From Bacteroidota bacterium (lineage in GTDB: Bacteria > Bacteroidota > Bacteroidia > Bacteroidales > Prolixibacteraceae): DNA of 64,000 nt. Of the stretch, positions 1-18,065 are shown in pieces. Below the pieces are notes generated by a model. It was given only the letters and a program-made list of their open reading frames with translations, was not told the origin of the DNA and did not search any database. Within the stretch, counting starts at the first letter, position 1, and every line of letters begins with the position of its first letter. The position numbers and the translations under genes are program-made. The DNA lies in contig JAJRSD010000083.1 in assembly GCA_024278975.1 (NCBI GenBank), forward strand, positions 24,967 through 88,966, read 5' to 3'.

Positions 1-1409
1 TAAACCGGATTTTCGTGGTTTGCAGTCTGTTGGTTTCCAAACCATAACGGCAACCACGAGCCATCGGAACGTTGATTTTTTTGCAAATAGTTACTTGCTT
101 TTGCAATGGTTTTTGAGAAAACTTTTAAATCTGAAGATGAAATTTCTTTACCATAATTTTTGATAGTAGCCGAAATTGCAAGTAAACAGTGTCCTGTTAA
201 ATCGGAACAACTTTGGTCAAAAGGTAATTTCCCCCAGCCTCTCGAAAATGTTGGAAATCCGCCATCTCTATTCTGAAGCTGTAATAACCATTTTACACCG
301 GCAATAACTTCTTGTCTCGAATTTTCCGATGATTGCAATTGAAGCAAAGCCAGAATTACTCCCGGTGTATCGTCGCAATCGGGTACCGAACCTGAGAAAC
401 TGGTCCATCCCCAGCCGCCCGGATTTGTTCCGTTAAACGGATGGATATTTTTGTTTTGAATAGATTTTAGATGAAGAACAAGTTGCTTTTGTTGAACAGA
501 TGAAAGAACTTCATCTTTTTTCGTTCTGAGTGCTTTTACACTTAATGTTGTTACCCAGGTCGAAAGGTCAACATCGATGGGCCAGCCGCCGTTGCTCCGC
601 TGAGTTCTTTTTAAAAATTCAATTCCTGTTTTTACAATATCGGTTTCTTTGTAACCTGCATTAATAAGACTTAACGAAACAAATGCAGTTAACGGCACTG
701 CCTCCAAAAAACCTCCGCTGGCAGGCAATAATTTATGTAAAACGCGAAGTGATTTTTTTACCGCCCATTGACGAGTTCGCTTCCCAAACGCTCTCTTTTT
801 TTTCTTTTTGAAGATTACTATTCCAACTGCAATAAGTGCCGGAATCGCATAACTTACAACGCTCAGATTTAATAAGCGGTAAAACTTTTGCGGTAAAAGC
901 GAAAACTCAAAAGGCAACTGCGGAATGTGTTCGAATCCATTTTTTTTAGGAATTCCGCAAAGCGCACACATTGTTAAAATGGGTACCGAAAAGGTATAAT
1001 CTTTTTTATAATGCGATAGAATAACCTCCGAAACCTGATTCGAAAGTACATCAATCGATTCGTTTTTAAGATATTGGGCAATCGTTTTTTGTAAATCGGC
1101 AAGACTCTTATCTTTAGAAGAATACAGATTTACAGCGGCGTAAACCATCAGCGAAGTTGAAATATTCCCCGGACTTTCAGGTGTGTCGCCAAAACTTCCA
1201 TCGGTATTTATGTTGTTTTTTAGCCAATCGAGTCCGCGCTCAATTTCCTTTCTGTTTTTGTTGGGGCTGTCGAAATGCAGAGCCGCAACAGCAACTGCCA
1301 CACCCAACGCACTCGATGATAATTCACCGGTCCAGAATCCGTCTGTATTAATTTGCTGTACCAGCAAATCAGACAATTCTTTATGTCTGTTTTTCAGAGT
1401 CTTCTCCAT
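1..1409 (-). CDS. Squalene-hopene-cyclase-like / prenyltransferase-squalene oxidase repeat protein (class II terpene cyclase type), runs off the left edge (not in ORF track because no stop in window)
   Basis: Manual reverse-strand translation from ATG at 1409: MEKTLKNRHKELSDLLVQQINTDGFWTGEL...; QW-type repeats (QRSNGGWPID, QNRDGGFPTF, QRSDGSWLPLWFGNQ) and DxDD-type motif in GSVPDCDDTPGVILAL; overlaps the upstream gene by 29 nt. Confidence 0.85.
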   Translation of the reverse strand, partial: MEKTLKNRHKELSDLLVQQINTDGFWTGELSSSALGVAVAVAALHFDSPNKNRKEIERGLDWLKNNINTDGSFGDTPESPGNISTSLMVYAAVNLYSSKDKSLADLQKTIAQYLKNESIDVLSNQVSEVILSHYKKDYTFSVPILTMCALCGIPKKNGFEHIPQLPFEFSLLPQKFYRLLNLSVVSYAIPALIAVGIVIFKKKKKRAFGKRTRQWAVKKSLRVLHKLLPASGGFLEAVPLTAFVSLSLINAGYKETDIVKTGIEFLKRTQRSNGGWPIDVDLSTWVTTLSVKALRTKKDEVLSSVQQKQLVLHLKSIQNKNIHPFNGTNPGGWGWTSFSGSVPDCDDTPGVILALLQLQSSENSRQEVIAGVKWLLQLQNRDGGFPTFSRGWGKLPFDQSCSDLTGHCLLAISATIKNYGKEISSSDLKVFSKTIAKASNYLQKNQRSDGSWLPLWFGNQQTANHENPV

Positions 1410-2244
1410 TTTCAATTAATGTTCCCAAAGCCAGCAAGCCGTAAAAAGTATATTCCAAATCGCGGGTTTCGTCACCATCGCCCGACAAAAACGCACCCGA
1501 ACTATAATTGTGTTGAATAAAATTAATACAATCTACTGTAATTAATCTTAAGTCGTAATTGGTTTGGCGCAAAACAAACAAGGCAACAGCAGTTGATAAA
1601 ATATCGCTGTTTGTAACAGATGCGAAGGATCTAAAGCCTACTCCCTCTTTGTAATACGAGATAAGTTTTTGCTGCTCTTTTTTAAAATTCAAGCCAACTT
1701 TCTTTTTTGCAAAAGTTAATGCAGACATTAAACTACAAGGCAAGTTTCCCTTTGGTTTATAAAAGTACAACCAAATTCGGGCAAAAAAGTAATAAACTTT
1801 ATTGTATCTGTTTTGAGCATCGATAACTAATGTTAGCAGGAAAAATTTATACGACAACTCAATTCTTTTCCCTTTCCCGAAAACTACTTTTAACAGCGAA
1901 AATAGAGAACGGGATTTCTGCGGTTTAAAAAGCTCTGTGTCTATTAAAATAACAGCCATTTGTTCTACAGGTCCAATCTTCTGGTTATCTTTCTGAGTAG
2001 TTATATACGACTTAAAACTATCGAGATGCCCAGTGCAATTGCCGGCTAAACAAAGCCAAAAACCAAATATAGAATAGTAGAGGTCGGGGTTTCCACCGCG
2101 GTCGGTAAAACCACCGTTTTTATGTTGTTGGGTTTCTAAAAAAATGATTATTTGTTGTTGGGTTTCTTCGTCTAAAACATTAAACCCGGCTTCAACGTAT
2201 TGAATTAACTGTTTGTAAACCGGTATATTTTGGTCACTAATCAT
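1381..2244 (-). CDS. Prenyltransferase/alpha-alpha-barrel repeat protein (terpene cyclase/prenyltransferase-beta-like)
   Basis: FLETQQHKNGGFTDRGGNPDLYYSIFGFWLCLAG is typical of prenyltransferase-type repeats; short (287 aa); start 2244 abuts upstream stop 2247. Confidence 0.7.
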   Translation of the reverse strand: MISDQNIPVYKQLIQYVEAGFNVLDEETQQQIIIFLETQQHKNGGFTDRGGNPDLYYSIFGFWLCLAGNCTGHLDSFKSYITTQKDNQKIGPVEQMAVILIDTELFKPQKSRSLFSLLKVVFGKGKRIELSYKFFLLTLVIDAQNRYNKVYYFFARIWLYFYKPKGNLPCSLMSALTFAKKKVGLNFKKEQQKLISYYKEGVGFRSFASVTNSDILSTAVALFVLRQTNYDLRLITVDCINFIQHNYSSGAFLSGDGDETRDLEYTFYGLLALGTLIENGEDSEKQT

Positions 2245-2246
2245 TT

Positions 2247-3818
2247 TTATTGGCGTTTAAATAATTTCCCCAATATGCCGTATAAACTTAGCCGAAGTTT
2301 TGCATTTTGAAGTTTATCGAGTTTCGAGTAACATTTTTCAACATAATTATTTAAAATACTTTCTGCTTCCGAAATTAATTCTTTGTCCTCAATTACCTTT
2401 CTGAATTCACCAACATCGGTAAATACTTTGGCTGGAAGAGTCTCTTTTCTATCTAAATAAATATCGTTTAAAAGTGCAACCAGAAATGGGAAATTATCGA
2501 TTTTTTCATTTTCAGCGGGTTCGTAAAATTCGTTTAAATCGTCTCTAATCTGGTAAGATATTCCAAATAAATCTGAAAACTGTTCAATAATTTCGATTTC
2601 AGTTTTATTTGCATCACCTAAAACAGCACCCAACAAAAGAGCTACTTTAATGGCTTCACCTGTTTTTAGTTTAAAAATATTCAGAACTTTTTCGATGCCT
2701 AAATCACTGATATGTTCATTTAATAAAATATCGGCTGATTGCCCCTGCGTGAGTCTCACATGCGAGAGTGTTACTTTTTTTAAGCACTCAACAATTAATT
2801 TATTAGCAACAGGCAAATCTGACAGAATCTGGTAACCTTTTCCGATAAGATAATCGCCAACATTAATTGCAATTGGCATACCATGTTTTTTATGTGCAGT
2901 TTCAACATTGTACCTCAAATCTGCATCATCCTGAATATCATCATGAATTAACGAAGCTTTGTGAAAACACTCGATAATAAAAGCCAACGAAGGTAAAATA
3001 GTACTATTCTCTTTTTTCGAATAGGCAAGATAAGTCAGAACTGCCAAAAGCGGGCGCATTCGCTGACCACCAATTAACATGTACTCTTTTGCCAGTTGTT
3101 CTGCTTTGTCCGATTCAGTAAAAAATAGTTGAAGCGACTCTTCAGAAAAATACTCTGTTACCTGCGATTTTAATTGAGAAACAGAGAGTGGTTTAAAATT
3201 ATCATTTTCCTCAAATGACCTAATTTCGTCGAAAAGCCATTGATTATCTAATTTTGTATTCTGACAGCCATCGTACATAAGTGGTATTCCAATTACCGGA
3301 ACAGCCGCATTGGAAACGGGGTCGAACGAACGCTGTAAAACAGGCATACAACTAACTCCAATAACGGCATCAATTGCACCTTCTTCAACCAACCCAACTG
3401 CAACCGTAGTACCTTCGGCAACTAATGTTGCGTATCCCAACTGTTCGGCTTCTATCAAAATATTATCTATTGAACAACCTTTACAACCAGCACAAATTAG
3501 CCCCAGATTATCGAAAACCCCCCTGCAACTGGTACTACTTTTCAAACATTGTGGAAGTAAAAGAAGCCTGCGGTTTATGGGGGTGGCTTTTACTGTTTCG
3601 CGCCATGTTTCATTTCCAATCAGGATAATGGCAAAATCGGTATATTCTTTCGGAATATTCAGTTTATGAACAAGTTTAATTGCCAGTTTTTCCAAGGTTT
3701 CAAAATTTGCCGGCGGTCGCAATCCTATCTTTTTTATAAGCAGTGCCGCCTCTTTACGAAGCAAATTTCGTAACGGCAACTCCTTCGGGACTTTTAATAA
3801 TCTTTCTTCTTTTTTCAT
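2247..3818 (-). CDS. Fusion: N-terminal DUF116-like Cys-rich domain + C-terminal polyprenyl synthetase (isoprenyl diphosphate synthase) domain
   Basis: N-term LLLLPQCLKSSTSCRG..LICAGCKGCSID..GVSCMPVL; C-term GGQRMRPLLAVLTYLAY, LIHDDIQDD (first Asp-rich motif), YQIRDDLNEF (second motif, DDxxE). Confidence 0.85.
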   Translation of the reverse strand: MKKEERLLKVPKELPLRNLLRKEAALLIKKIGLRPPANFETLEKLAIKLVHKLNIPKEYTDFAIILIGNETWRETVKATPINRRLLLLPQCLKSSTSCRGVFDNLGLICAGCKGCSIDNILIEAEQLGYATLVAEGTTVAVGLVEEGAIDAVIGVSCMPVLQRSFDPVSNAAVPVIGIPLMYDGCQNTKLDNQWLFDEIRSFEENDNFKPLSVSQLKSQVTEYFSEESLQLFFTESDKAEQLAKEYMLIGGQRMRPLLAVLTYLAYSKKENSTILPSLAFIIECFHKASLIHDDIQDDADLRYNVETAHKKHGMPIAINVGDYLIGKGYQILSDLPVANKLIVECLKKVTLSHVRLTQGQSADILLNEHISDLGIEKVLNIFKLKTGEAIKVALLLGAVLGDANKTEIEIIEQFSDLFGISYQIRDDLNEFYEPAENEKIDNFPFLVALLNDIYLDRKETLPAKVFTDVGEFRKVIEDKELISEAESILNNYVEKCYSKLDKLQNAKLRLSLYGILGKLFKRQ

Positions 3819-3823
3819 TTTAA

Positions 3824-4999
3824 TTAACCGTAAGCTCCTAATCCGAAAAAAGCACGTTTTTTTGCAAACCTGTAAAATCGGTTTTTTTCGGGAATAGATT
3901 TTATTGAACCATGACTTGGAACTTTTTGCATTGCCGACAACCGCTCTGCTTCGTTTCCGCGACCGGAAGTATCTCTGGCCGAATGTTTATTTGTGTAATT
4001 TACAAGCCATTGAGGATCGTCCATTACAATACACCCTTTTGTTTTATTGGGGATTTCGGTTTTGAATTCTTTTAAAAAAGAGGAATTTTTGTAAATGTCG
4101 GCCAGGTTTCCATCGCTAACATTATTGGTTGCAAACTGAATCACGGGGCAAGGTTCAATGTCTCCCGAGGCATTTATATGATGACTTAATCCGGAAGCTG
4201 CCGGACAGAGTCCATCTCCATTTTCGTCCCAATATGCATCAACAATTACGATGTTGTATTTAATGCGCGCATCAACTATAAACAGTCGTAATTTCTCAAT
4301 TTCCTCTTCAGAAAGAGCAAGTTCAACTGTTGCATTTTCGCCAACCGGACGGTAAATATAATACCACAAATAAAGCACTCCTTTTTTTATGAGTGAGTAG
4401 ATAAATTCTTCCGAAAAAGCAAGTTCCATATTCGATTTGCAAACACTCATTGCAACCCCGGTTACTAATCCGGCTTGTGTAGAATTTACAATTGCGGCTT
4501 GTGTTTTCTCGTAAACATCGATACCTCCGCGTCTGATATCTGCAACTTCCTGGTCGCCTTCAAAACTAATAAGCGGAGTAACATTCGATAATTTACGAAG
4601 TTCCTCTGCAACTTCAGGCGTTAAAAGTGTTCCGTTTGTAAACAACTGGAAATAACAGTCGCTGTGTTTTCTGAAAATATCGAACAGAGGTTTGTACAGC
4701 AGAGGTTCGCCGCCTAATATTCCAAAAAAATAGGAGCCCTGTTTTTTCGATTGTTCAATAATACTGTCGAGTTTTTCGGGTTCCATTTGGCTGTTCTTTA
4801 TCTTCCCTGTAACCCAGCAACCCTGGCAGTGTAAATTACAATCGTCGGTTACCGATATAAAGTGAAAAGCCGGAAAAAACACACCTTTTTTTAATCGCTT
4901 TTGAAACCGGTTAAAACTTATTGCCCCCTTAATTCCAAGGTTATATATAAATTTGAACAGACATTTTTTATCAGTTTTTAAAACTAACTGTTTTAGCAT
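3824..4999 (-). CDS. Radical SAM protein with C-terminal SPASM-like Cys region
   Basis: FISVTDDCNLHCQGCWVTGK (CxxxCxxC), GGEPLLYKPLFDIFRKH, C-terminal CPAASGLSHHINASGDIEPCPVIQ. Confidence 0.85.
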   Translation of the reverse strand: MLKQLVLKTDKKCLFKFIYNLGIKGAISFNRFQKRLKKGVFFPAFHFISVTDDCNLHCQGCWVTGKIKNSQMEPEKLDSIIEQSKKQGSYFFGILGGEPLLYKPLFDIFRKHSDCYFQLFTNGTLLTPEVAEELRKLSNVTPLISFEGDQEVADIRRGGIDVYEKTQAAIVNSTQAGLVTGVAMSVCKSNMELAFSEEFIYSLIKKGVLYLWYYIYRPVGENATVELALSEEEIEKLRLFIVDARIKYNIVIVDAYWDENGDGLCPAASGLSHHINASGDIEPCPVIQFATNNVSDGNLADIYKNSSFLKEFKTEIPNKTKGCIVMDDPQWLVNYTNKHSARDTSGRGNEAERLSAMQKVPSHGSIKSIPEKNRFYRFAKKRAFFGLGAYG

Positions 5000-5000
5000 A

Positions 5001-5774
5001 TTATTTCTTTTTATTCAATCCCTTTTTTAAATCTGCAATTGCCTTATTTCTCTCTGCCTCGGCTTGTTGGACAAATCCTTGTCTGAAAATATTTCTTCGC
5101 GAATTGTTCCGCTCGTTCAGTAGCACAAACAACCCACCGTTATTTTCTGGTTTTTGTATCCTGATTTTTTCTCCGGGTTCAGCTCCCGAGAGAACAGAAT
5201 TCTCGGCTAACCTTGGAAAAATTATTGCAGATGTCGGACAAGTTCGCCCACAAGCGGGACAATTGTCTTTACATTCCAGTGGTTCTACAACACTCAAACT
5301 TTTTTTATCGTACTCATAAACTCCAAAAAGGCAAAACCGGGAACATTGCCCGCAAAGTGTGCACCGCGAGTGGTCGATAACAGGAAACCAGGCCGGGACT
5401 TCCAATTCGCTTTTTTTAATTTCATAATTGGCATCTCCCGCAGGTAAATTATATTCACTCTTCAGTTTATCACCTATTTGCTCAACTGTTTCCTCTCTGA
5501 AATTTAAGGTTTTAAATGCCCCAAAATCAATTTTGTTTTGTATTAAAAGGTTTTTTACGGCACGCGGATAACAGGCAACAATAAATTTATGATGATATTT
5601 TTTTCCAATGGAATTCAAAAAATCTTTTTCGGTTAACGAACAGGCACACAAATCATGTAACTCGTAAACATCTATTTGCAACTTAGCAAAAACCTGTTTC
5701 AGCTTTTCCTGTTTCTCTTCCGAAATTAGTCCGGCACTGCATCTACAAAATAATAAACATGTTTTATTCTTCAT
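5001..5774 (-). CDS. 4Fe-4S ferredoxin-type protein with N-terminal Cys-rich region
   Basis: CTLCGQCSRFCLFGVYEY and CKDNCPACGRTCPTSAI; N-term CLLFCRCSAG. Confidence 0.75.
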   Translation of the reverse strand: MKNKTCLLFCRCSAGLISEEKQEKLKQVFAKLQIDVYELHDLCACSLTEKDFLNSIGKKYHHKFIVACYPRAVKNLLIQNKIDFGAFKTLNFREETVEQIGDKLKSEYNLPAGDANYEIKKSELEVPAWFPVIDHSRCTLCGQCSRFCLFGVYEYDKKSLSVVEPLECKDNCPACGRTCPTSAIIFPRLAENSVLSGAEPGEKIRIQKPENNGGLFVLLNERNNSRRNIFRQGFVQQAEAERNKAIADLKKGLNKKK

Positions 5775-6042: not shown

Positions 6043-7047
6043 TTATCTTTTCCGGGTGGTGATATAATTCATCAATTCGATTAAAGACGTGCGTGCTTCG
6101 CAATCGTCAAACTCCATTAATGCACTTACAGCTTTGTCTTTGAATTCCAGCATCTTAGATTCTGCATATTCAAGTCCGCCCTTTTTTGTAACCATTTCTA
6201 TTAACTCTTTAACAACCTCCGAATCTTTGTTTTTGCGCTTTATCAACCGTAAGATTCGCTTACGTTCTTTCGGTTTTGCATTGTTTAAAACGTATAAAAG
6301 TGGTAATGTAATTTTCTTCTCTTTTATGTCGTTTCCTGTTGGTTTTCCCAAAACTCCTTTCGACTGATAATCGAAAATATCGTCTTTTATCTGAAATGCT
6401 ATTCCGGCATCTTGTCCAATTCGATACATTTTTTCGGGTAATTCCGGATCGTCTGATGCTGAAGCGGCTCCAATTGCCATGCTGGTAGCAATTAACGAAG
6501 CTGTTTTTTTGCGAATTATTTCGAAGTATGTTTCATCGTCGATATCAAGTTTACGACTTTTTTTCATTTGGAGAATTTCGCCTTCGCTCATATCTTGTAC
6601 GGCTTGCGAAATCAGATGTAAAAAGTTGTACTTTTTGTTTTCGAGTTGAAGTATTAGTCCTCTTGCAAGAATATAATCGCCCACCAAAACTGCAAGTTTA
6701 TTTTTCCAAAGTGCTTTTACCGAGAAGGTTCCGCGACGTTCGTACGACTCATCAACCACATCGTCGTGAACCAAAGTTGCGGTGTGCAACAGCTCAACCG
6801 AGCAGGCAGCTAATTTTGAATATTCATTTGTTTCGCCATGTAATTTTGCCGACAAAAAGACAAAAATTGGCCGGAGTTGTTTCCCTTTTGTACGGTATAA
6901 AAAATTTAAAATAGTTGCGAGAAGTGGAATATCGCTCTGTAATGATTTTTTAAAATAGGGTTCAAAATCTTTGAGCTCCTGTTCAATCGGTAATCTTATT
7001 TTTTTTATTGTTGTCATTAAATTGAAAATCTTTCTTTTTAATTTCAA
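6043..7047 (-). CDS. Polyprenyl synthetase (octaprenyl/trans-prenyl diphosphate synthase type); alternative start at 7017
   Basis: GKQLRPIFVFLSAKLHG, LVHDDVVDESYERRG and FQIKDDIFDYQ: both canonical DDxxD motifs. Confidence 0.9.
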   Translation of the reverse strand: MKLKRKIFNLMTTIKKIRLPIEQELKDFEPYFKKSLQSDIPLLATILNFLYRTKGKQLRPIFVFLSAKLHGETNEYSKLAACSVELLHTATLVHDDVVDESYERRGTFSVKALWKNKLAVLVGDYILARGLILQLENKKYNFLHLISQAVQDMSEGEILQMKKSRKLDIDDETYFEIIRKKTASLIATSMAIGAASASDDPELPEKMYRIGQDAGIAFQIKDDIFDYQSKGVLGKPTGNDIKEKKITLPLLYVLNNAKPKERKRILRLIKRKNKDSEVVKELIEMVTKKGGLEYAESKMLEFKDKAVSALMEFDDCEARTSLIELMNYITTRKR

Positions 7048-7197: not shown

Positions 7198-7500
7198 ATG
7201 GTAGAAATCAAGGGGTTAGATGCAGATAGATTAGAAATTGCTGCAAGTATGTTAAAAGCGATGGCGCATCCGATGCGTATTGCGATACTCAAACATCTTG
7301 ATGGTAACAAAAGGTTAACAGTTACTCAAATTCATAAATTATTGGGAATTGAACAGTCTTCAACTTCTCATCATCTTGGAATTTTAAGAGACAAAGGAGT
7401 TTTATGCTCGAAGCGTGACGGGAAGAATACTTACTACTATTTGAAATATGAAATTCTAAGTCATATTATAGATACTTTACAAACGTGTGCCTGCGAGTAA
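7198..7500 (+). CDS. ArsR-family winged-helix transcriptional regulator
   Basis: LKAMAHPMRIAILKHLDGNKRLTVTQIHKLLGIEQSSTSHHLGILRDKGVLCSKRDGKNTYYYL; C-terminal CACE. Confidence 0.9.
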   Translation: MVEIKGLDADRLEIAASMLKAMAHPMRIAILKHLDGNKRLTVTQIHKLLGIEQSSTSHHLGILRDKGVLCSKRDGKNTYYYLKYEILSHIIDTLQTCACE

Positions 7501-7562
7501 ATTATCATTAAAATATTGAATGCTGCAGATTTTAATCTGGGGCATTTTTTGTTTGTTCCAAT

Positions 7563-8069
7563 CTAATTGTCAGAAAAACCTTTTCCTTTTTCTCTCAGAT
7601 TTTTTAAATCGTTAACCGTAAAATCGCCATAAAACGAAACGATAAAACGCATTTGATGGTCATCATCGTTTTTTACAAAAACGTGGCACTCGGTAAATTT
7701 TTTCTTTTTCCCCAGTAGCCATATTTCCACATCTTCGTCGTCGTCTTCACTCTCATCTTCAAACTTTTTGTATTGCGATGGTAAAAGTTTAATTGCTTTT
7801 TTAATAAAATCGGAACCGGTTAAATTTCCTTTTTCGGGGTTGTACGACATAAAACGTATTCGATTTAAATCGCCCGTTACATTTTTTTCATCATCGTCGT
7901 CTCCCAAATCCAAATCAATTGCATCAATCATACTTTTCGAGAAAGAGAAACTTAAAACCCCGTCGTTTCCTGAAAAAGTATCGTACATTTTTTCTGATTT
8001 ACTTTGGGCATTTGCAAATTGTGAAGCAACTATAATAATAGCCGCCAACGTTATTTTAATTGTTTTCAT
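7563..8069 (-). CDS. DUF4252-like exported protein
   Basis: Signal peptide MKTIKITLAAIIIVASQFANAQ; Asp/Glu-rich; adjacent to PspC gene; family assignment from general resemblance. Confidence 0.6.
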   Translation of the reverse strand: MKTIKITLAAIIIVASQFANAQSKSEKMYDTFSGNDGVLSFSFSKSMIDAIDLDLGDDDDEKNVTGDLNRIRFMSYNPEKGNLTGSDFIKKAIKLLPSQYKKFEDESEDDDEDVEIWLLGKKKKFTECHVFVKNDDDHQMRFIVSFYGDFTVNDLKNLREKGKGFSDN

Positions 8070-8093
8070 TATAAATATTTTTTGCGAAGTTTA

Positions 8094-8128
8094 GTCATAC
8101 CCTCACTTAAAAAAAGTGAGAGCATGAC
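8094..8128. repeat. Intergenic hairpin GTCATACCCTCACTT-N5-AAGTGAGAGCATGAC
   Basis: 15-bp arms, 13/15 matched, between 7563..8069 and 8139..9740. Confidence 0.75.
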
Positions 8129-8138
8129 ATGACAATAA

Positions 8139-9740
8139 CTAAAAATTGCTGTTTAATAATTCCTCTGTTTCTTTTAGTGCCAGACCATCTGAAGTCATTT
8201 TCCAAGTTTTTCCAACCATATCGGCATCCCATGTATTCGACACATTATCAATATCGTAAATTATCTTAATCATATTCTCCCCAAGAAAAACTGATTTTCC
8301 TTCCGGTATTTTTATGGTGATATCAACATCTTGATTACGCCATTTGCCGTCTTCGTCTAATAAAAAGTATGGGTCGAATAACAATGTTGAGTCGTTTAAT
8401 TCGTAAATGTATATTATATCTTCGGCAGATTCTTTTGCATCTTCGCGAGTTTTCCCTCTCGCCGCTTTCTTCACCGAAACAATAAAATTATCGCTTCCCG
8501 ATTTTACTATATCTAAATTTGGTTCCCCCATCATAACTTCATCGCCATTAATAATCATAATCTTAAAGTTATTAATATCGAGGTCGAGTTCAGCATAGTC
8601 GTCATATTTATCATCGGCAAGTTTTAAGTACAGGGTTTCGCACGAGTCGCACGAAATTGTTTTATTCACTGTTATCGATGACTTACTTTTATAATTTCCA
8701 ACCTGCCCTGCCGAAACAACTATTAGCGAAACAAGTGCAATTAACCAAACCCCAATCATACTTAATCCTATGGCTGTGTTATTTGTTTTATAGCGAAACA
8801 CCAGTTTTGTTCCGATAAAAAGCATTGCAAGCATCGGAATTCCCACTAATAACCCGATTGCAATTAATCCAAATGTTACTGTTCCGGGTTCAACAAAATG
8901 GTTAAAGAAACCGGGAACCTGAATGTCGGGACTCCAAATTAACGGCCAGCCATCAACAAAAGAGTGCCCGATTGCAAGTGTTGAAATAAACCCTAACAGA
9001 CCAAAAAATCCGGAGATAATTAAAACAATACCAATTATTATTACAATTACTTTTAGCAAAACTTTAAATATATTGTAAGCCACGTCGCCTGCACCTTCAA
9101 CACCTTTTTTCCCTTTCGAATAAGTGTCTGACTCTTTAAACTTTTTGTAACTCTCTTTTACTTCGGCAACTTCCTCTTTTATCGACTTTTCAATATTTTT
9201 CACAGTTGCTTCTTGTCCACGCATTTCGAGGCGTTGAGTAGTGTTTATCGCTTTCGGAACTGCAATCCAAAGAATAAAGTATGCAATTAAAGCTGCTCCT
9301 GAAGTTACAAAAAACAGGGCTACAAAAATAATTCGCAGAATTACCGGATCCATATTAAAGTATGCCGAAAGTCCACCACAAACACCACCTAAAACACGGT
9401 GCTCGGGGTCGCGGTACAGTCTTCTTTTTCTTTTAGATTCAGTGTAAACAGGTTCTTCTTCTTCTCCCTCTCCTTCTTCTTCGGCAATAATTTCCGGAGT
9501 TCCCATTATTTCAATTATATTGTTTACCATTTCAACTGTAACGACTATTTTCTCTTCGGTTGATTTTTCGCTGAAAATTTCAGCAATCCTCGCTTCAATG
9601 TCCGAAACAATCTCTCTCCCCTCTTCTCCGCTACCAAAATGGTTTTTTAATTTAATTAGATATTTCTGGAGTACCTCGTACGCATCTTCTTCGATGTGAA
9701 AAATGGTACCACTTATATTTATTGTAAATGTCTTTTTCAT
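8139..9740 (-). CDS. PspC-domain membrane protein
   Basis: RRLYRDPEHRVLGGVCGGLSAYFNMDPVILRIIFVALFFVTSGAALIAYFILWIAVPK. Confidence 0.92.
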   Translation of the reverse strand: MKKTFTINISGTIFHIEEDAYEVLQKYLIKLKNHFGSGEEGREIVSDIEARIAEIFSEKSTEEKIVVTVEMVNNIIEIMGTPEIIAEEEGEGEEEEPVYTESKRKRRLYRDPEHRVLGGVCGGLSAYFNMDPVILRIIFVALFFVTSGAALIAYFILWIAVPKAINTTQRLEMRGQEATVKNIEKSIKEEVAEVKESYKKFKESDTYSKGKKGVEGAGDVAYNIFKVLLKVIVIIIGIVLIISGFFGLLGFISTLAIGHSFVDGWPLIWSPDIQVPGFFNHFVEPGTVTFGLIAIGLLVGIPMLAMLFIGTKLVFRYKTNNTAIGLSMIGVWLIALVSLIVVSAGQVGNYKSKSSITVNKTISCDSCETLYLKLADDKYDDYAELDLDINNFKIMIINGDEVMMGEPNLDIVKSGSDNFIVSVKKAARGKTREDAKESAEDIIYIYELNDSTLLFDPYFLLDEDGKWRNQDVDITIKIPEGKSVFLGENMIKIIYDIDNVSNTWDADMVGKTWKMTSDGLALKETEELLNSNF

Positions 9741-9832
9741 CTCATTATTATTTTAAATTTTTTACGGGCATTCGATGTATCTCGCGTATAGTTTTTTTTC
9801 TGTGTTATAAATATGCTGTTTGCTCGTTTCAT
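9737..9832 (-). CDS. Possible 31-aa small ORF, ATGA-coupled to the PspC gene
   Basis: MKRANSIFITQKKNYTRDTSNARKKFKIIMR*; stop TGA 9737-9739 overlaps the PspC ATG 9738-9740; same AATGAGATGAAA leader as PspC. Confidence 0.3.
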   Translation of the reverse strand: MKRANSIFITQKKNYTRDTSNARKKFKIIMR

Positions 9833-9851
9833 CTCATTATAATTTTAATAG

Positions 9852-10184
9852 TTACGATCTATTATTTTTAACTGTACCTACAGATTCTACTAATTCTCCC
9901 CACGAATTTTCCAGATCTCCTAGAAATTTTCGTCCACTGTCTGTTAATTCGTAGTATTTACGCGGCGGTCCTTGTGTAGATTCCTCCCAACGGTAAGTTA
10001 ATAATCCTGCATTTTTTAAGCGGGTGAGCAGTGGATAAAGTGTTCCTTCAACCACTATTAATTTTGCTTCTTTTAATGCCTGAATTATATTGCTTGCGTA
10101 GAGAGGTTTGCCGTCCAGAACAAGAAGTATGCAATATTCCAAAACTCCTTTCCTCATCTGTGCTTTTGCATTTTCTATTTTCAT
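9852..10184 (-). CDS. PadR-family transcriptional regulator
   Basis: MRKGVLEYCILLVLDGKPLYASNIIQALKEAKLIVVEGTLYPLLTRLKNAGLLTYRWEESTQGPPRKYYELTDSGRKFL. Confidence 0.92.
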   Translation of the reverse strand: MKIENAKAQMRKGVLEYCILLVLDGKPLYASNIIQALKEAKLIVVEGTLYPLLTRLKNAGLLTYRWEESTQGPPRKYYELTDSGRKFLGDLENSWGELVESVGTVKNNRS

Positions 10185-10236
10185 CTCAATAAATTCTAAT
10201 ATGTGTACATAATTGCGTTCTCTAAATCTCTCAGAT

Positions 10237-10668
10237 TTAAATTTCCCAAACTTTCTCTGAAGTCATCCACGCTTCCAGTTCCAACGAAGTTTCAACATCT
10301 TCGTTTACCAGAAACAGGTCTCCGTTTAACATCCACTCTTCAATTCCCAAATCATTGTCGTTCTCCAGAGTATATCCAAACCCTGCGACTCTGAAATGGT
10401 TTTCGTCGAACATCCAATTTTCTAACTCTAAAGTTGGATCGTTTTCATTTTCTAATAACGTGAAATTGAAATTTTCAGTTGTTGAACCTGAAGTTTCTGT
10501 CGCTTTTGGAGTTTCAATCATCGCGAGGGCAATTTTGTTGAAACTACTGTTTTCTAAAAGCTTCTTCCAAAAATCCTGACCGCTAACTGTTAAACTAATT
10601 AGAACGAAACTAACTACTACTGCTACCGACCTTAAAATTGTTTTCTGAACATTGTCTTTTGTTTTCAT
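10237..10668 (-). CDS. Exported protein with three LE-x-WM repeats, function unknown
   Basis: Signal-like N-terminus; LELENWMFDENHF, LGIEEWMLNGDLF, LELEAWMTSEKVW. Confidence 0.65.
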   Translation of the reverse strand: MKTKDNVQKTILRSVAVVVSFVLISLTVSGQDFWKKLLENSSFNKIALAMIETPKATETSGSTTENFNFTLLENENDPTLELENWMFDENHFRVAGFGYTLENDNDLGIEEWMLNGDLFLVNEDVETSLELEAWMTSEKVWEI

Positions 10669-10799
10669 GGCTTTTTTGTTTCTGTTTGTTTTTGTTTTTC
10701 TGTTTTCTTGTTATTATGACGCTGTTTTTTTAATAATGTTACAAACTATAAGGAACTATTTTAAAGAAACTACTCTTTTTTACCTTGTTGTTTGCAATG

Positions 10800-10843
10800 C
10801 AAATATATGTATTTATTTTAGTACTATGCAACACAAAGTACTA
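10800..10843 (-). promoter_or_regulatory. Candidate promoter (-7 TATATTTG on minus, 10800-10807) with inverted repeat TAGTACT-N11-AGTACTA (10819-10843)
   Basis: Upstream of the 10668-to-7563 gene set that includes a PadR regulator; perfect 7-bp inverted repeat. Confidence 0.4.
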
Positions 10844-11073
10844 TAAAAATAATAATTAATTTTAAAAGAGAGCATAAAGTGCTGTGTAAAAGCAATCTAT
10901 GGAGTATTAAAAAATTGGGTATTTTTTGCGATTATTCTCAAAAAGTAATATAAACTGTTGTCATTACGAGGGGTCGCCCAAATTAATTGGGCATAATAAG
11001 TAAATGACAGAGAGATGCTGAATCGAGTTCTCCCATGAGAGTCCTTTGGATAGCATGACGCTATAATTTTAAC

Positions 11074-11099
11074 GTCACCCTGAACTTGTTTCAGGGTCT
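11074..11099. repeat. Dispersed intergenic repeat GTCACCCTGAACTTGTTTCAGGGTCT
   Basis: Closely matches the reverse complement of the right arm of the palindrome at 38644..38706. Confidence 0.6.
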
Positions 11100-11496
11100 T
11101 TTAACAAAATCTGTCATTGGCAGCGAAGCGAAGTAATATCTAATTTAACCAAACATTAGCGATATATTTTACTAAAATATATCTTGTCTCACCACCCATT
11201 ACTTTGTCTCTTTTAAATTGTTAATAACCTATTAACATGTTGTTCAAAAGTTGCCAAAATTGTTTAATAAATATCCGATTAAGGTTTTGGTAGTAATGTT
11301 AAAATATGTGAACTTTCGTCGCCTTTTTAAAATGATATTAGCCTTTAGTTTTGAGGTTTGAAAAAGGTTAAATTAGAACCAGAAATATGATAAAATCAGT
11401 TGTGATAGTTAAAGATTATGGTATTGTATTCTCATTCAACAAATCAAAAAATAACATACTATTCATTTATTTAAATTCTATTAAAAACAATTTTTT

Positions 11497-14043
11497 ATGA
11501 AAAAAACAATTTTGTCATCTGTAATGGTGGCTATTTTTAGCTTACTTGGTTTTGCAACTTTTGCTCAGGGAACAATTAAAGGGGTAATTGTTGACACGGA
11601 AACCAGCGAAGCATTAATAGGAGCCAGTGTAGTTCTCGATGGTACAACTATTGGAACTGTTACCAACATTAATGGAGAATTCTCGCTTTCGGTTAAAGAG
11701 GGCGACCAAAAAATTAACATCTCTTATATAGGATATGTTACTCAACAAGTTAATGTAAAAGTTTCTAGTGGGAAAACCATCGACATTGGAGAAGTAAAAC
11801 TTCAATCTGATGCGGTAGGTATTAGCGAAGTAATGGTGCTTGCATCTGTTGCTGTAAGGCGGAAAACCCCGGTTGCGGTTTCGTCGATAGATCCAACAGA
11901 AATTGCTGAAAAATTGGGAACTCAAGAGTATCCTGAGATTTTAAAATCTACTCCCGGAATTTATGCAACTCGTCAGGGAGGTGGTTTTGGCGACTCGCGT
12001 ATTAATGTTCGTGGTTTCGATATGAAAAACACAGCAGTACTTATTAACGGTGTTCCGGTAAACGACATGGAGAACGGCTGGGTTTATTGGAGTAACTGGG
12101 CAGGTTTATCTGAAGTTACACGCTCGATGCAGGTACAACGTGGTCTTGGAGCTTCTAAACTTTCGATTGGTTCGGTTGGTGGTACTATTAACATTATTAC
12201 CAAAACTACCGATGCTAAAAAAGGTGGAAGTGTTTATACCGGTGTTGGAAACGATGGTTATAGGAAAACTTCGTTTACACTCTCTTCCGGATTAAGTGAA
12301 AAAGGATGGGCAATGTCTTTGTCGGGAGCCCGTGCAACAGGAAACGGCTGGGTTGATGCAACTCAATTCGAAGGCTGGTCGTATTTTGCAAGTATATCTA
12401 AACGCTGGACAAATCAAATGTTAACATTTACTGCATTTGGTGCTCCGCAAGTTCACGGACAACGTTCGAGCACTCAAAGTATTGAGCAGGTTAAAGACCC
12501 TGCAAAAGGGTTACGTTTTAACCCTGACTGGGGATACAAAGATGGGCAAACATATAATTTGAGAACCAATTTCTATCATAAACCACAAATGTCGTTAAAC
12601 CATTATTTAACAATTAGCGACAATATGACTTTGGCAACATCTGCTTATTATTCGTTCGGAACAGGTGGTGGAACAGGCAATTACGGTTCTAACCAAAACG
12701 CATTTTACACTTATAAAACTCCTGATAATTTAATTGATTACGACAGGATTGTTGCTGAAAATGTAGCAAATGGAAATGGCGGTTCAACTGCAATTATGCG
12801 TGCATCAAGAAACGATCATAACTGGATGGGTGTTCTATCTAACCTTCAGTATAATTTAAATGAAAACTGGGAATTAAGTGGTGGTTTAGATTTACGACAT
12901 TACATCGGAAAACACTACCGCGAAGTTACAGATTTAATGGGCGGTGACTTTGTTTTATCCACAGAAGATAAAAACAACCCGGATAAAATTGCACGTGTAG
13001 GCGATAGGATTGGTTATTCGAACGAAGGTGTTGTAACATGGCAAGGATTATTTGGTCAGGTAGAATATTCGAAAGACAAATTATCTACATTTTTTGCAGC
13101 CTCTGTTTCAAACTCAGGATATCAACGTATAGACTATTTTAATTATTTAGACAGCGATCCCAACCAAACTTCAGAGAAAGTAAATCATCAGGGTTTTGTA
13201 ACAAAAGGTGGAGCAAATTATAATATTAACGAAAAGCACAACGTTTTTGCCAATATTGGGTACTTCGAAAAAGCACCAACTTTCGATGCTGTTTTTATCA
13301 ATTACGTGAATGATATTAATACTGGAGCCACAAACGAAAAAACCATGTCTTATGAAATTGGTTATGGTTACAGTAGTCAGAATTTTACTGTTAATATTAA
13401 TGCATATTCAACCAACTGGAAAGATAAATATTTCCGACGCTCTATTAGACAACCTGATGGAGAATTTTATCAGGCAAATATTCAAGGAGTAAATGCTCTA
13501 CACCAGGGTATCGAAATGGATTTTAAATGGAAGCCTGTTAAAGATCTTAGAATTACAGGTATGGCATCTTTGGGTGACTGGACATGGCAAAACGATTTAG
13601 TTGACGTACCAATAGTAAACGACAACCAAGAAGTAATTGGATATGTTGATTTATATATTGCAGGTTTAAAAGTTGGCGATGCTGCACAAACAACATTTGC
13701 CCTTGGAGCAGATTACGAACTTTTTGAAGGGTTTAAAATTGGAGTGAATTACAACTATTACGAGAATTTATATGCACAATACGATCCAACAGGGAGAGGA
13801 GATGAAGCTAAAAAAGGTGTGCAGCCCTGGAAAGTTCCTGCGTATGGTTTAGTTGATGCAAATATTAGATACCGGTTTAAAATTGGCGATTTCGATGCTA
13901 CATTATACGGAAATATCATAAATATATTTGATACTGAATTTATTTCGGATGCTGATGATGGAAAGAATAACGATTGGCAATCAGCAAGAGTTTATTATGG
14001 TATTGGCAGAAATTGGTCGACAGGTTTAAGAATTAACTTCTAA
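11497..14043 (+). CDS. TonB-dependent outer-membrane receptor with N-terminal carboxypeptidase-regulatory-like domain
   Basis: GTIKGVIVDTETSEALIGASVVLDGTTIGTVTNINGEFSL; plug ILKSTPGIYATRQGGGFGDSRINVRGFDMKNTAVLINGVPVNDMENGWVYWSNW; C-terminal beta-barrel. Confidence 0.95.
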   Translation: MKKTILSSVMVAIFSLLGFATFAQGTIKGVIVDTETSEALIGASVVLDGTTIGTVTNINGEFSLSVKEGDQKINISYIGYVTQQVNVKVSSGKTIDIGEVKLQSDAVGISEVMVLASVAVRRKTPVAVSSIDPTEIAEKLGTQEYPEILKSTPGIYATRQGGGFGDSRINVRGFDMKNTAVLINGVPVNDMENGWVYWSNWAGLSEVTRSMQVQRGLGASKLSIGSVGGTINIITKTTDAKKGGSVYTGVGNDGYRKTSFTLSSGLSEKGWAMSLSGARATGNGWVDATQFEGWSYFASISKRWTNQMLTFTAFGAPQVHGQRSSTQSIEQVKDPAKGLRFNPDWGYKDGQTYNLRTNFYHKPQMSLNHYLTISDNMTLATSAYYSFGTGGGTGNYGSNQNAFYTYKTPDNLIDYDRIVAENVANGNGGSTAIMRASRNDHNWMGVLSNLQYNLNENWELSGGLDLRHYIGKHYREVTDLMGGDFVLSTEDKNNPDKIARVGDRIGYSNEGVVTWQGLFGQVEYSKDKLSTFFAASVSNSGYQRIDYFNYLDSDPNQTSEKVNHQGFVTKGGANYNINEKHNVFANIGYFEKAPTFDAVFINYVNDINTGATNEKTMSYEIGYGYSSQNFTVNINAYSTNWKDKYFRRSIRQPDGEFYQANIQGVNALHQGIEMDFKWKPVKDLRITGMASLGDWTWQNDLVDVPIVNDNQEVIGYVDLYIAGLKVGDAAQTTFALGADYELFEGFKIGVNYNYYENLYAQYDPTGRGDEAKKGVQPWKVPAYGLVDANIRYRFKIGDFDATLYGNIINIFDTEFISDADDGKNNDWQSARVYYGIGRNWSTGLRINF

Positions 14044-14055
14044 AAAAGTATTAAA

Positions 14056-15192
14056 ATGAAAAAGATATTATTTATAGCGACACTCGCAATTGTAGTTGTT
14101 TTCAATGCTTGTACTCCAATGCAGGAAATCAACGATGAAATTGACAAATTGATTGCTGATGATGACAAAACAGCAATTTTCTTAAAAGACAGAGCAATAG
14201 CTCCGGCTGCTTATACTCTTACCGACGAAGACTACGAACTCTCGAGTAACGAAAGTGTGAGTAAGTATAAAAGCTTCTCGAAATATGCTTTACCAAAAGA
14301 CTATCTTCCTGAGATTTTAAATATAAAATTTTCGGCAGACGATGCTCAATCGATGGTGGTTACGTACGCTTTTTATTCGAAACCGATAAAAGATAAAGAT
14401 AATGCCTATGAAATTAGTGATGAAGATTACATAAGCATGGGACAGAAGTATGGAAATTTTAGTGATGAAGATGTTGCTGAATCGTTAATTGGTAAGTTAT
14501 TCGATAGAATAATGTATGCCGATGAAGTCGGTGCTGAAAAAACTGCACAATATATTTTATTTTCAAAATATAATACGCGTTATATAAGAGTAAATGCTGA
14601 TGGTACGAGCGAAGAGGTTGGTTACGACAAAAATGCAGAAGAGGTTACCGACGAAATTTACGAGGCAACAGGAAATGGTAAGTATAAAACTTTTTATACA
14701 ATTAATGATGCATTGGAAGATTTGGCACAATATGCCACCGAAAATGGAAAAAATCCTGTTACATACGCCGGCACAGTGTATAAAAATTACATCGACACAT
14801 ATATAGTTTATCTGTTTAATGGTACAAATTGGCTGGCTAAACAGAGTGTTATGCCAGTTGCAGAGGAGTTAAATTATGCATTAAACGCTGATGATATTAC
14901 TCAAAGTACATGGTGGGCCGACCCTGCAATTAAAATCACTTTAACATCTGAAGATTATGCTCTTTACCCGGAATCTGCCAAGTATGGTAACTTCGACCTC
15001 CGTAGTGGAAAAGTACCGGGAACGGATCATGGTAAATTAATTGAGATGATTACCGGGATGTTAGACACTAATTATAGTATTGTTGAGGATCAACAATATT
15101 TAGTAACATATAATTATTATGATGGTAGTTCCGGCGCTACTAATATTCGTTTGATTAAAAACGGCGGAACCTGGTCTGAAGTTACAGATTAA
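14056..15192 (+). CDS. Lipoprotein of unknown function with repeated DEDY/KYGNF-like units
   Basis: Lipobox VVFNACTP; YTLTDEDYELSS..KYKSFSKY, YEISDEDYISMGQKYGNFSDED, ITLTSEDYALYPESAKYGNFD. Confidence 0.7.
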   Translation: MKKILFIATLAIVVVFNACTPMQEINDEIDKLIADDDKTAIFLKDRAIAPAAYTLTDEDYELSSNESVSKYKSFSKYALPKDYLPEILNIKFSADDAQSMVVTYAFYSKPIKDKDNAYEISDEDYISMGQKYGNFSDEDVAESLIGKLFDRIMYADEVGAEKTAQYILFSKYNTRYIRVNADGTSEEVGYDKNAEEVTDEIYEATGNGKYKTFYTINDALEDLAQYATENGKNPVTYAGTVYKNYIDTYIVYLFNGTNWLAKQSVMPVAEELNYALNADDITQSTWWADPAIKITLTSEDYALYPESAKYGNFDLRSGKVPGTDHGKLIEMITGMLDTNYSIVEDQQYLVTYNYYDGSSGATNIRLIKNGGTWSEVTD

Positions 15193-15210
15193 TCCGCTTT
15201 AACAAATATT

Positions 15211-15240
15211 AAAAAAAGCCGCTTTATGCGGCTTTTTTTT
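15211..15240 (+). terminator. Rho-independent terminator
   Basis: AAAAAAAGCCGC-TTTAT-GCGGCTTTTTTTT. Confidence 0.85.
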
Positions 15241-15251
15241 GCTTCAATACC

Positions 15252-15390
15252 CTCGCTCCTGCGCTATTGTATCGTGTGGTAATGTTGTTTCGAGTTCAAA
15301 GTTCAAAGTTCAAAGTTCCAAGTTTCGGGTTGGCGGGTTTTCTTTTTACTGAATGGTAGTTCAATCGTGCACCGGTAAGGGTTAAAACTC
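15252..15390. repeat. Intergenic direct repeat, copy 1
   Basis: CGCTCCTGCGCTATTGTATCGTGTGGTAATGTTGTTTCGAGTT...TTTCGGGTTGGCGG...GTTCAATCGTGCACCGG. Confidence 0.75.
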
Positions 15391-15400
15391 TCCCTCTTCT

Positions 15401-15463
15401 CCCTCTCTTCGCGAAGAGAGGGACGATAATTTGGTAGTCTGATTTATCAGACTGCTAAATTAT
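15401..15463. repeat. Two consecutive palindromes: 22-bp CCCTCTCTTCGCGAAGAGAGGG and 18-bp-arm hairpin ATAATTTGGTAGTCTGAT-TT-ATCAGACTGCTAAATTAT
   Basis: 15401-15422 perfect; 15426-15463 with 16/18 paired. Confidence 0.75.
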
Positions 15464-15531
15464 CAGGGTGAGTAATCTAAATTGTGCAAACCATTCTCAA
15501 TTAGCTCAAACTGAGCGCAAATATAATCGTA

Positions 15532-15660
15532 CCTCCGCTCCTGCGCTATTGTATCGTGTGGTAATGTTGTTTCGAGTTTAAAGTTTAAGGTTTCGGGTTG
15601 GCGGAACAGGCAGGTTTTCTTTTACTGAACGCAGTTCAATCGCGCACCGGCGAGGAGGGT
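15532..15660. repeat. Intergenic direct repeat, copy 2
   Basis: Same CGCTCCTGCGCTATTGTATCGTGTGGTAATGTTGTTTCGAGTT...TTTCGGGTTGGCGG...GTTCAATCGCGCACCGG unit as 15252..15390. Confidence 0.75.
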
Positions 15661-15664
15661 TTTA

Positions 15665-15779
15665 GATGCCCCTGTTTCCACTTACAAGCGCAAGCGCTTG
15701 CAAGTTCCAATAATCCCCCTGAATCAGCGGATAGTCGCAGGCAATTAACCGTTTAGGTTATTGACGGAGACAGGGGTAT
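15665..15779. repeat. Small terminal-inverted-repeat element with internal palindrome
   Basis: ATGCCCCTGTTTCC ... GGAGACAGGGGTAT ends; internal ACTTACAAGCG-CAAG-CGCTTGCAAGT (15680-15705). Confidence 0.55.
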
Positions 15780-15845
15780 TTAAATTCATCATTTAATAAC
15801 CTGTTTTATTAAAATGAATTCTTATTTTTGTCCCCTATTTATTGT

Positions 15846-16844
15846 ATGAAAATGGAACAAGTACAAATTAATAAGATGTTGGAAGGGAAGGGTTTTATTG
15901 ATGAACCGATTGACCCGAAACTGGATTTGGTTAAGGAAATTAACCGTCTGAAAAAAGAGAGAAACGCCGTAATTCTCAGCCACTTTTATGTTGAAGGCGA
16001 GTTGCAGGATATTGCAGATTATGTGGGCGACAGTCTTGGACTGGCACAGGCAGCAGCAAATACCGATGCAGAAACGATAGTTTTTGTGGGCGTTCATTTT
16101 ATGGCCGAAACAGCAAAAATTATCAATCCTCAGAAAAAGGTAATATTACCCGATTTAAAAGCAAGTTGCTCGCTTGCAGAATCGGCACCGGCCGAAAAAT
16201 TTGCAGCATTCAAAGCAAAATATCCCAACCATAAAGTTATTACTTACGTAAATGCAACTGCCGACTTAAAAACAATGTCCGACATTGTTTGTACTTCGGC
16301 GAATGCCCAAAAAATTGTTGAAAGTTTCCCAAAAGATCAGAAGTTAATTTTTGCCCCCGATAAAAACCTTGGTAATTATATTAATAGTATCACCGGGCGT
16401 AATATGGTTTTATGGGACGGCGCCTGTGTTGTACACGAACAATATTCAGTAGAAAAAATTGCTGATTTAATAGATGAACATTCAGATGCAGAATTTATTG
16501 CTCATCCCGAATGTGAAAAACCTGTTCTTTTGCTGGCAAAACATATTGGTTCAACAACGTCGCTTTTAAACTACGTTCAGTCGAGTAGTGCGAAAAAATT
16601 TATTGTTGCAACCGAAAGTGGTATTCTACACCAGATGATAAAAGCGTGCCCCGATAAAATTTTCATTCCGGCTCCGTCAATCGACTCAACCTGCGGATGT
16701 AACGACTGTGAGTTTATGAAACTTAACAGTATGCAAAAACTTTATAATTGCATGAAATACGAGCAACCCGAAGTTACTCTCCCGGAGGATGTAATCGAAA
16801 AAGCCCGAATCCCAATTCAACGAATGTTGGATATTTCAAAATAA
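15846..16844 (+). CDS. nadA: Quinolinate synthase NadA
   Basis: AVILSHFYVEGELQDIADYVGDSLGLAQAAA, DLKASCSLAESAPAE, SIDSTCGCNDCEFMKLN; ATG 15846 preferred over the TTG at 15828 used in the track. Confidence 0.95.
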   Translation: MKMEQVQINKMLEGKGFIDEPIDPKLDLVKEINRLKKERNAVILSHFYVEGELQDIADYVGDSLGLAQAAANTDAETIVFVGVHFMAETAKIINPQKKVILPDLKASCSLAESAPAEKFAAFKAKYPNHKVITYVNATADLKTMSDIVCTSANAQKIVESFPKDQKLIFAPDKNLGNYINSITGRNMVLWDGACVVHEQYSVEKIADLIDEHSDAEFIAHPECEKPVLLLAKHIGSTTSLLNYVQSSSAKKFIVATESGILHQMIKACPDKIFIPAPSIDSTCGCNDCEFMKLNSMQKLYNCMKYEQPEVTLPEDVIEKARIPIQRMLDISK

Positions 16845-16968
16845 ATATTTCCCGTTTAATTATTTTCATACGGTTTGTGAATACAGCAAAAAAAGTTTTT
16901 AAGTCTGTGGTTAATGTTTATTCAATGAATAAATTAACTTTAAGGTCTTAATTTTTAAACTGAGAATT

Positions 16969-17964
16969 ATGGCAAGACCAGTAACACTTTTTACCGGACA
17001 ATGGGCCGATCTTCCCATTGAAATAATGTGCAAAAAAGCACAGGAATTTGGATACGACGGACTCGAACTTTGCTGCTGGGGCGATCATCTGGAAATTGAT
17101 AAAGCCGATCAGGCTTATTGCGACGAAAGATTGGCACTTCTCGAAAAATACGATTTAAAACTATTTGCAATCTCCTCTCATCTTGTGGGGCAATGCGTTG
17201 CCGATAATATCGATGAACGACATAAAAGTATAGTGCCGGAATATATTTGGGGCGATGGCAAACCCGAAGGCATTCGACAACGTGCAGCAGCAGAGATGAT
17301 TAAAACTGCAAAAGTTGCAAAAATGCTCGGGCTCGATACAGTTGTTGGCTTTACCGGAAGTCCGATTTGGCATTTGCTTTATTCATTCCCCCCGGTTACT
17401 CCCGAAATGGTTGAAAAAGGTTATAATGACTTTGCCAAATACTGGATTCCAGTTTTAGATGAATACCAAAAACTCGGTGTTAAATTTGCGTTGGAAGCAC
17501 ATCCAACCTAAATAGCTTTCGATATTCATACTGCACATTTAACTTTGAAAGCACTGAATAATCACCCGGCATTCGGGTTTAATTTCGACCCGAGTCATTT
17601 TGGTTATCAACATGTTGACTATGTGAAATTTATTTATGAGTTTGCCGATCGTATTTTTCATGTTCATATGAAAGATGCGTATTGGAGTGATGTTCCAATG
17701 AGTGTTGGAGTTTTTGGCGGGCATACGGAATTTGGTGATAACCGCCGATATTGGAATTTCCGTAGTTTGGGTCGCGGTAAAATCGACTTCGAAAATATAA
17801 TCAGAGCACTAAATGATATTGGTTACAACGGGCCACTTTCAGTAGAGTGGGAAGACAGCGGTATGAATCGCGAAGTAGGTGCGGAAGAAGCATGCGATTT
17901 TGTTCGCTATGCCGATTTTGAACCTTCGGACGTGGCATTTGATGATGCAATGCAGAAGGAGTGA
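16969..17964 (+). pseudogene. Sugar phosphate isomerase/epimerase (TIM-barrel, AP-endonuclease-2 family) interrupted by an in-frame TAA
   Basis: ORFs 16969..17511 and 17545..17964 are in the same frame; ...[42 protein letters not shown] at 17509-17511 at the position expected for Glu in (E)xHPTEIAFD. Confidence 0.85.
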
Positions 17965-18065
17965 AGAAAGAGCTGGTAGATGGAAGTCTGAAGACCGGAG
18001 CAGGAAGTTTAAAAAAGGAATTTGTGAGATATAAGTAGTGCGTGCAAGAAAACTTACTATTTTCA

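Follow-up and report, generated by a model that had tools for sequence, protein, structure and literature searches.

The stretch of DNA analysed here, called the window throughout, comprises 64,000 nucleotides of a Prolixibacteraceae genome (assembly GCA_024278975.1, contig JAJRSD010000083.1, positions 24,967 to 88,966; G000:C90:24967-88966 in our numbering, where G000 is the window's own genome, 99.6% complete). At its left end lies a cassette of five minus-strand genes, which is predicted to encode a squalene-independent pathway to a cyclic polyprenoid; judged from sequence, this class of pathway is fairly secure. In a fuller reading, to which we give an even chance, the cassette is a dedicated operon whose cyclised polyprenyl product would serve a second set of genes, here named module 2, that is inherited together with it. 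The linkage to module 2, which lies outside the window, is the strongest clue to the function of the cassette. The five genes, beginning with the first of the operon, are:

5001..5774, minus strand: FS, Fe-S protein, 257 aa, first cassette gene (sub-cut-off Pfam Fer4 match, HdrA/HgcB-like NCBIfam similarity, conserved Cys)
3824..4999, minus strand: RS, radical SAM enzyme, 391 aa (PF04055, 2.2e-16; Cys conservation; SkfB the nearest solved relative)
2247..3818, minus strand: DP, fusion of DUF116 and a trans-polyprenyl diphosphate synthase (PF01976, 1.1e-30; PF00348, 5.7e-41)
1381..2244, minus strand: B, small alpha/alpha-toroid protein of the prenyltransferase/terpene-cyclase type, 287 aa (sub-cut-off PF00432 match, AlphaFold2 model)
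1..1409, minus strand: class II terpene cyclase resembling squalene-hopene cyclase (SHC), about 600 aa in full (PF13243, SQHop_cyclase_C, 4.7e-32; PF13249, SQHop_cyclase_N, 4.4e-18)

An earlier note, made from the letters of the window, had described these genes as packed with tiny gaps or overlaps, and the reading frames were confirmed where it had placed them. From FS through RS and DP to B the gaps are 1, 5 and 2 nt, and B overlaps the cyclase by 29 nt if the latter starts at the ATG at 1409, or by 35 nt if it starts at the alternative TTG at 1415. The domains that had been claimed (SHC-like, polyprenyl synthetase, DUF116 and radical SAM) all gave Pfam matches over the cut-off. The left window edge cuts the cyclase, and extension of the contig to the left of position 1, as the earlier note had proposed, added 388 bases which complete it, with the C-terminal end at G000:C90:24579 (whole gene, L004:14580-16382). 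The end of a convergent glycoside-hydrolase-like gene lies 12 nt past the cyclase stop, so that the operon ends with the cyclase. Neither a promoter and terminator scan nor a PHROGs search contributed, the former giving no informative signal and the latter no match.

Related loci were surveyed in one genome from each of 84,980 species. The survey gave 548 related stretches, the best 80 of which were analysed; these come from Bacteroidales, Lentisphaerota, Kiritimatiellota, one Verrucomicrobia bin and one bin labelled Eubacteriales. It was found that the cassette is complete and in the order FS-RS-DP-B-SHC in 56 of the 80, and that most of the other loci are broken by contig ends or fragmentary, with Pontiella (L150) carrying a rearranged set. 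Inside the complete cassettes 186 of 224 gaps measure 50 nt or less, and 107 of those are overlaps or abutments. This order is not a product of chance, since tens of genomes share it while their flanking genes differ. Furthermore, the pairwise distances of the five proteins are correlated (r 0.91-0.97, 68 cassettes), a correlation to which shared species history also contributes, since this test, like the co-occurrence test described below, ignores shared ancestry. A lack of co-conservation, which had been named in advance as an outcome that would refute a dedicated gene set, was looked for by neighbourhood comparison and did not occur; the set is co-conserved in order across relatives.

Within the window's genus the DUF116::synthase fusion is present in 29 of 37 genomes, while in a sample of 295 genomes of the order RS was detected in 13, belonging to 9 families; a 36% RS match in G107 is a paralogue, with the cassette absent. 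The only match in a phylum-level sample of 395 genomes was the window's own genome. In a tree of RS, DP and SHC the window's clade, a Parabacteroides-type clade and the Lentisphaerota/Kiritimatiellota lineages are separate. In a single-contig relative (L045, G006:C1, 9570-12539) B and the cyclase are each in two frames with FS, RS and DP intact, which reflects either a decaying cassette or sequencing errors. The bin labelled Eubacteriales (L086, JAQVJP010000011.1), the operon of which is about 76-85% identical to one from Bacteroidales, is probably mis-binned.

Substrate of the class II cyclase

The earlier note had recognised a DxDD-type motif of a class II cyclase in the letters DCDDTP. DxDD proved to be present in 83 of 83 cyclases, all of them fitting D-[ACG]-DD-[TS], with DCDDT in the window copy. 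When compared with the Alicyclobacillus enzyme (AacSHC), the family profile is identical at D374, D376, D377, W312, D447, H451, W489 and Y495, and has aromatic residues at the positions of F365 and Y420; these positions are active-site residues of SHC. In its two SQHop_cyclase domains, its DxDDT acid motif and these active-site residues the cyclase is like the squalene-hopene cyclase of the hopanoid (hpn/sqhC) pathway, but it is encoded together with a polyprenyl synthase, DUF116, B, RS and FS. Moreover, it scores 95.2 bits against the TIGR01507 hopene cyclase model, far below the cut-off of 431.1. Drimenyl diphosphate synthase (7xq4) and MstE (6sbb) belong to the same DxDD-type class II cyclase superfamily and the cyclase family profile does match 7xq4; nonetheless, the best sequence match of the present cyclase is a full-length SHC, and its operon context is different.

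No squalene synthase had been seen in the window, and this observation holds for the entire genome, in which there is no gene of PF00494, the family comprising squalene synthase, HpnC and HpnD. In a census of 28 cassette genomes (the window's and 27 others) the family was missing from 7 of the others as well, making 8 of 28, with the single-contig genomes G008 and G031 among them. HpnH (adenosylhopene synthase) gave no match over the cut-off in 12 cassette genomes, the window's included, and no further protein of the window's genome scored above the cut-off as an SHC. Bacteria that produce hopene alone can be without HpnH. An ordinary hopanoid SHC with hpnCDE/hpnH elsewhere in the genome, the other outcome named beforehand as refuting, was searched for genome-wide and did not occur. 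Because the window's genome and seven others have no gene of the squalene-synthase family, and since neither HpnH nor another SHC was found in the window's genome, an ordinary hopanoid pathway, and with it the assignment of this cyclase as an ordinary hopanoid SHC, is very unlikely. With the known squalene routes missing in these hosts, a linear polyprenyl (di)phosphate, or a derivative of one, is the likelier substrate and our better guess.

A precedent for such a route is found in the gromomycins, squalene-independent bacterial triterpenes reported from Streptomyces, in which a polyprenyl synthetase is combined with a cyclase, GroF, that carries a DLADPD motif and acts on a linear hexaprenyl derivative (PMC12105684). 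The gromomycin pathway is similar to the present cassette in joining a polyprenyl synthetase and a cyclase in a squalene-free route, and differs from it in cyclase type and in its Rieske and P450 enzymes, whereas the cassette has a radical SAM enzyme (PMC12105684).

Genes that accompany the cassette

In Parabacteroides-type loci the operon continues into module 2, which consists of secreted PQQ_2 beta-propellers, a membrane-anchored PQQ_2 protein, a small beta-propeller, a Tat-type 4Fe-4S ferredoxin and a NapH-like membrane Fe-S protein. The window's genus has the same set, followed by a BamB-like protein, and in sister genomes this protein is in turn followed by a NuoEF fusion and a NuoG/GltD-like flavoprotein. 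In the window's genome module 2 was mapped as:

L169 (G000:C22:6000-25999), about 7490-19579: three secreted PQQ_2 beta-propellers, membrane-anchored PQQ_2 protein, small beta-propeller, Tat ferredoxin, NapH-like protein, BamB-like protein

Module 2 resembles the NapH/MauN and NuoEF systems in having a membrane Fer4_5 protein, an exported ferredoxin and an NADH-binding NuoEF-like fusion, and differs from them in its several PQQ_2/BamB-like beta-propellers and its NuoG/GltD-like flavoprotein. Its membrane protein reaches 38.9 bits against the NapH model TIGR02163, well short of the cut-off of 213. Two-component genes occur near some of these loci: in rumen Bacteroidales (L135:6966-8748 and similar) the genes immediately before the cassette encode a histidine kinase and a LytTR response regulator, and in L173 and L175 histidine kinase/LytTR-like proteins are located inside module 2.

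Module 2 adjoins the cassette in G021, G033 and G292, and lies on a separate contig (C22) in the window's genome. Of the cassette loci, 49 have 4 kb or more to the right of the cyclase; module-2-type genes are directly downstream of the cyclase in 46 of these and the ferredoxin is found in 40, in a collection in which one clade is over-represented and the loci are not independent. This adjacency was seen in the window's clade, the Parabacteroides-type clade and the Lentisphaerota/Kiritimatiellota lineages. Like adjacency, co-occurrence ties the two sets together. In the order-level sample of 295 genomes the ferredoxin marker is present in 48 and the cassette in 13; 11 genomes have the two together, so that 11/13 cassette genomes carry the marker vs 37/282 of the others (one-sided Fisher p = 4.5e-8, uncorrected for ancestry).

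The other four proteins

DP combines a Cys-rich DUF116 domain (about residues 46-197), with seven conserved Cys, and a synthase half (about residues 241-522) in which the DDxxD, DDxxD/E, KT and GxR.RP motifs are all intact. In 99/99 sequences the residues at -5 and -4 relative to the first Asp-rich motif are Ala and Ser, respectively; small residues at these positions are typical for longer-chain synthases. No NCBIfam chain-length equivalog cut-off was reached by the DP synthase. A neighbouring polyprenyl synthetase gene of the window (6043-7047), which also has Ala at -5, was considered as a sixth member of the cassette and rejected, as it does not lie beside the cassette in relatives.

The radical SAM motif of RS, C54-x3-C58-x2-C61, is an invariant CxxxCxxC in the alignment, and C265, C284 and C323 in a SPASM/twitch-like region are conserved as well (104 homologues). 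RS scores 15.6 bits against the SPASM domain PF13186, vs a cut-off of 21.5, and the alignment with SkfB runs through that region; no named NCBIfam family cut-off was reached. RS is like the SkfB-type radical SAM/SPASM enzymes in its CxxxCxxC core and in a matching C-terminal region with extra conserved Cys. It differs from SkfB-type systems in that no precursor peptide gene was noted in the cassette, no specific search for one having been made.

FS has an N-terminal Cys-containing domain followed by two 4Fe-4S-type motifs, C138-C141-C144-C148 and C168-C172-C175-C179, with Cys at least 95% conserved (103 homologues), and the AlphaFold2 model of B is an alpha/alpha toroid (mean pLDDT 81.8); the Fer4 and Prenyltrans matches are sub-cut-off, the latter at 23.6 bits vs a curated cut-off of 26.5 (PF00432). 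In profile comparisons B matched geranylgeranyltransferase (GGTase) beta subunits and SHC-type cyclases, while the fold matches of its model, all weak, were to MstE, drimenyl diphosphate synthase and complement thioester domains.

Competing explanations and a proposed pathway

Several observations weigh against the proposed pathway and its link to module 2. A PF00494 gene is carried by 20/28 cassette genomes, and in those genomes squalene or phytoene could be the substrate. Module 2 occurs without the cassette in 37 genomes, including G020 of the window's own genus, so that module 2 does not strictly need the product. Fold searches with the models of the DUF116 domain and of B returned nothing below E 0.001, with no useful match for the former and weak toroid matches for the latter.

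The strongest alternative accepts a cyclic terpenoid pathway and proposes that its product, an envelope lipid or a secreted compound, has nothing to do with module 2, shared ecology or regulation having made neighbours of the two gene sets. It would account for the 37/48 sampled genomes that have module 2 without the cassette and for the spacing of the two sets, which are on different contigs in the window's genome and about 100 kb apart in G011 and G031. We regard it as unlikely, though worth keeping in view, given their direct adjacency in both deep Bacteroidales clades and in Lentisphaerota/Kiritimatiellota and their strong co-occurrence.

A second alternative is that no free small molecule is made and that the cassette modifies a module 2 protein, by radical SAM/SPASM maturation and/or prenylation of the ferredoxin or a beta-propeller that is folded in the cytoplasm before export. 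Such a role would fit with the peptide maturase SkfB being closest in sequence to RS, with the resemblance of B to protein GGTase beta subunits, with the Tat-type leader on the module 2 ferredoxin and with the Cys-rich tail in which the small beta-propeller of the Parabacteroides-type clade ends. The tail, however, is absent in the window's clade and in the Lentisphaerota/Kiritimatiellota examples, and for this lack of conservation Cys-tail maturation of this protein was rejected. In B a Tyr is aligned with the His of the GGTase beta motif, a zinc ligand, and an intact DxDD cyclase would be left unexplained, making this alternative improbable. Still less probable is a lipid-binding or structural role for both toroid proteins around the radical SAM enzyme. 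Toroid folds do serve non-enzymatic roles too, as the complement thioester domain matches illustrate, and B has no DxDD motif; nonetheless, every SHC-like member retains the DxDD acid together with the residues that support it, and the operon includes a fused prenyl synthase. The weakest alternative, ordinary hopanoid biosynthesis by a divergent squalene-hopene cyclase with accessory neighbours, could invoke the SQHop_cyclase domains, the matched SHC active site and the PF00494 enzymes of the 20 genomes, and has very little to recommend it beside the TIGR01507 score, the lack of a PF00494 gene in the window's genome and in the single-contig G008 and G031, the lack of an HpnH match over the cut-off in 12 genomes and the cassette's own polyprenyl synthase in every instance.

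In the squalene-independent pathway that we favour, the synthase half of DP would make an all-trans polyprenyl diphosphate, probably longer than C20. The SHC-like protein would then protonate the far isoprene of this diphosphate, or of a head-group derivative, through the DxDD aspartate and start a class II ring-closing cascade, and the second toroid, B, may bind or further process the same hydrophobic chain. A radical modification by RS, with electrons from FS, is suggested to follow, and the Cys-rich DUF116 half may perform an unassigned, probably metal-dependent step. Module 2, inherited together with the cassette, would use the product; its probable electron path leads from NADH, through the NuoEF-like fusion and the flavoprotein, to the NapH-like membrane Fe-S protein, the Tat-exported ferredoxin and finally the PQQ-type beta-propellers. 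In this scheme the substrate and its chain length are inferred, as are the sequence of the steps, the direction in which electrons flow and the use of the product by module 2. A bolder proposal, that the product is a new polycyclic terpenoid redox cofactor or carrier for this NADH-to-periplasm electron pathway (NuoEF-like fusion, flavoprotein, NapH-like protein, exported ferredoxin and beta-propellers) in anaerobic Bacteroidales and Lentisphaerota/Kiritimatiellota, is tentative and, taken as a whole, doubtful.

The membrane-lipid or quinone-like product suggested in the earlier note was not established. MenA is missing in the window's genome and in G136, G148 and G203. Several sister species of the window's genome do have it, so that a single genus appears to contain different routes to quinones. 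The absence of MenA had suggested that the cassette might replace menaquinone, an idea which was dropped since all four genomes have UbiA-family genes, including an MqnP-like UbiA prenyltransferase in the window's genome (L178, G000:C95, 1444-2301). With this MqnP-like enzyme menaquinone can be accounted for without the cassette and, as several relatives moreover have MenA, is unlikely to be its product.

No published description of the five-gene set or of module 2 was found in the literature searched, in which subscription journals are thinly covered, making this weak evidence of novelty; the component families are known, and their combination and the partner module are apparently undescribed. 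The hosts of the cassette are anaerobic gut and sediment bacteria. Common anaerobes, Parabacteroides and rumen relatives of Prevotella among them, thus seem to make a terpenoid that is yet to be characterised, and if the link to module 2 is true, animal-associated bacteria would have both a new lipid and a new route of electron transfer at the membrane. The cassette is also a concrete setting for finding the function of DUF116, to which no function was found assigned.

Two further genes of the window have unusual domain combinations. One (54600-57992) encodes a protein of 1130 aa with HEAT repeats and a 3-keto-disaccharide hydrolase domain, and the other (39146-41053) encodes a single protein which joins a BlaR1-type M56 peptidase domain with TonB C-terminal and Plug-type matches.

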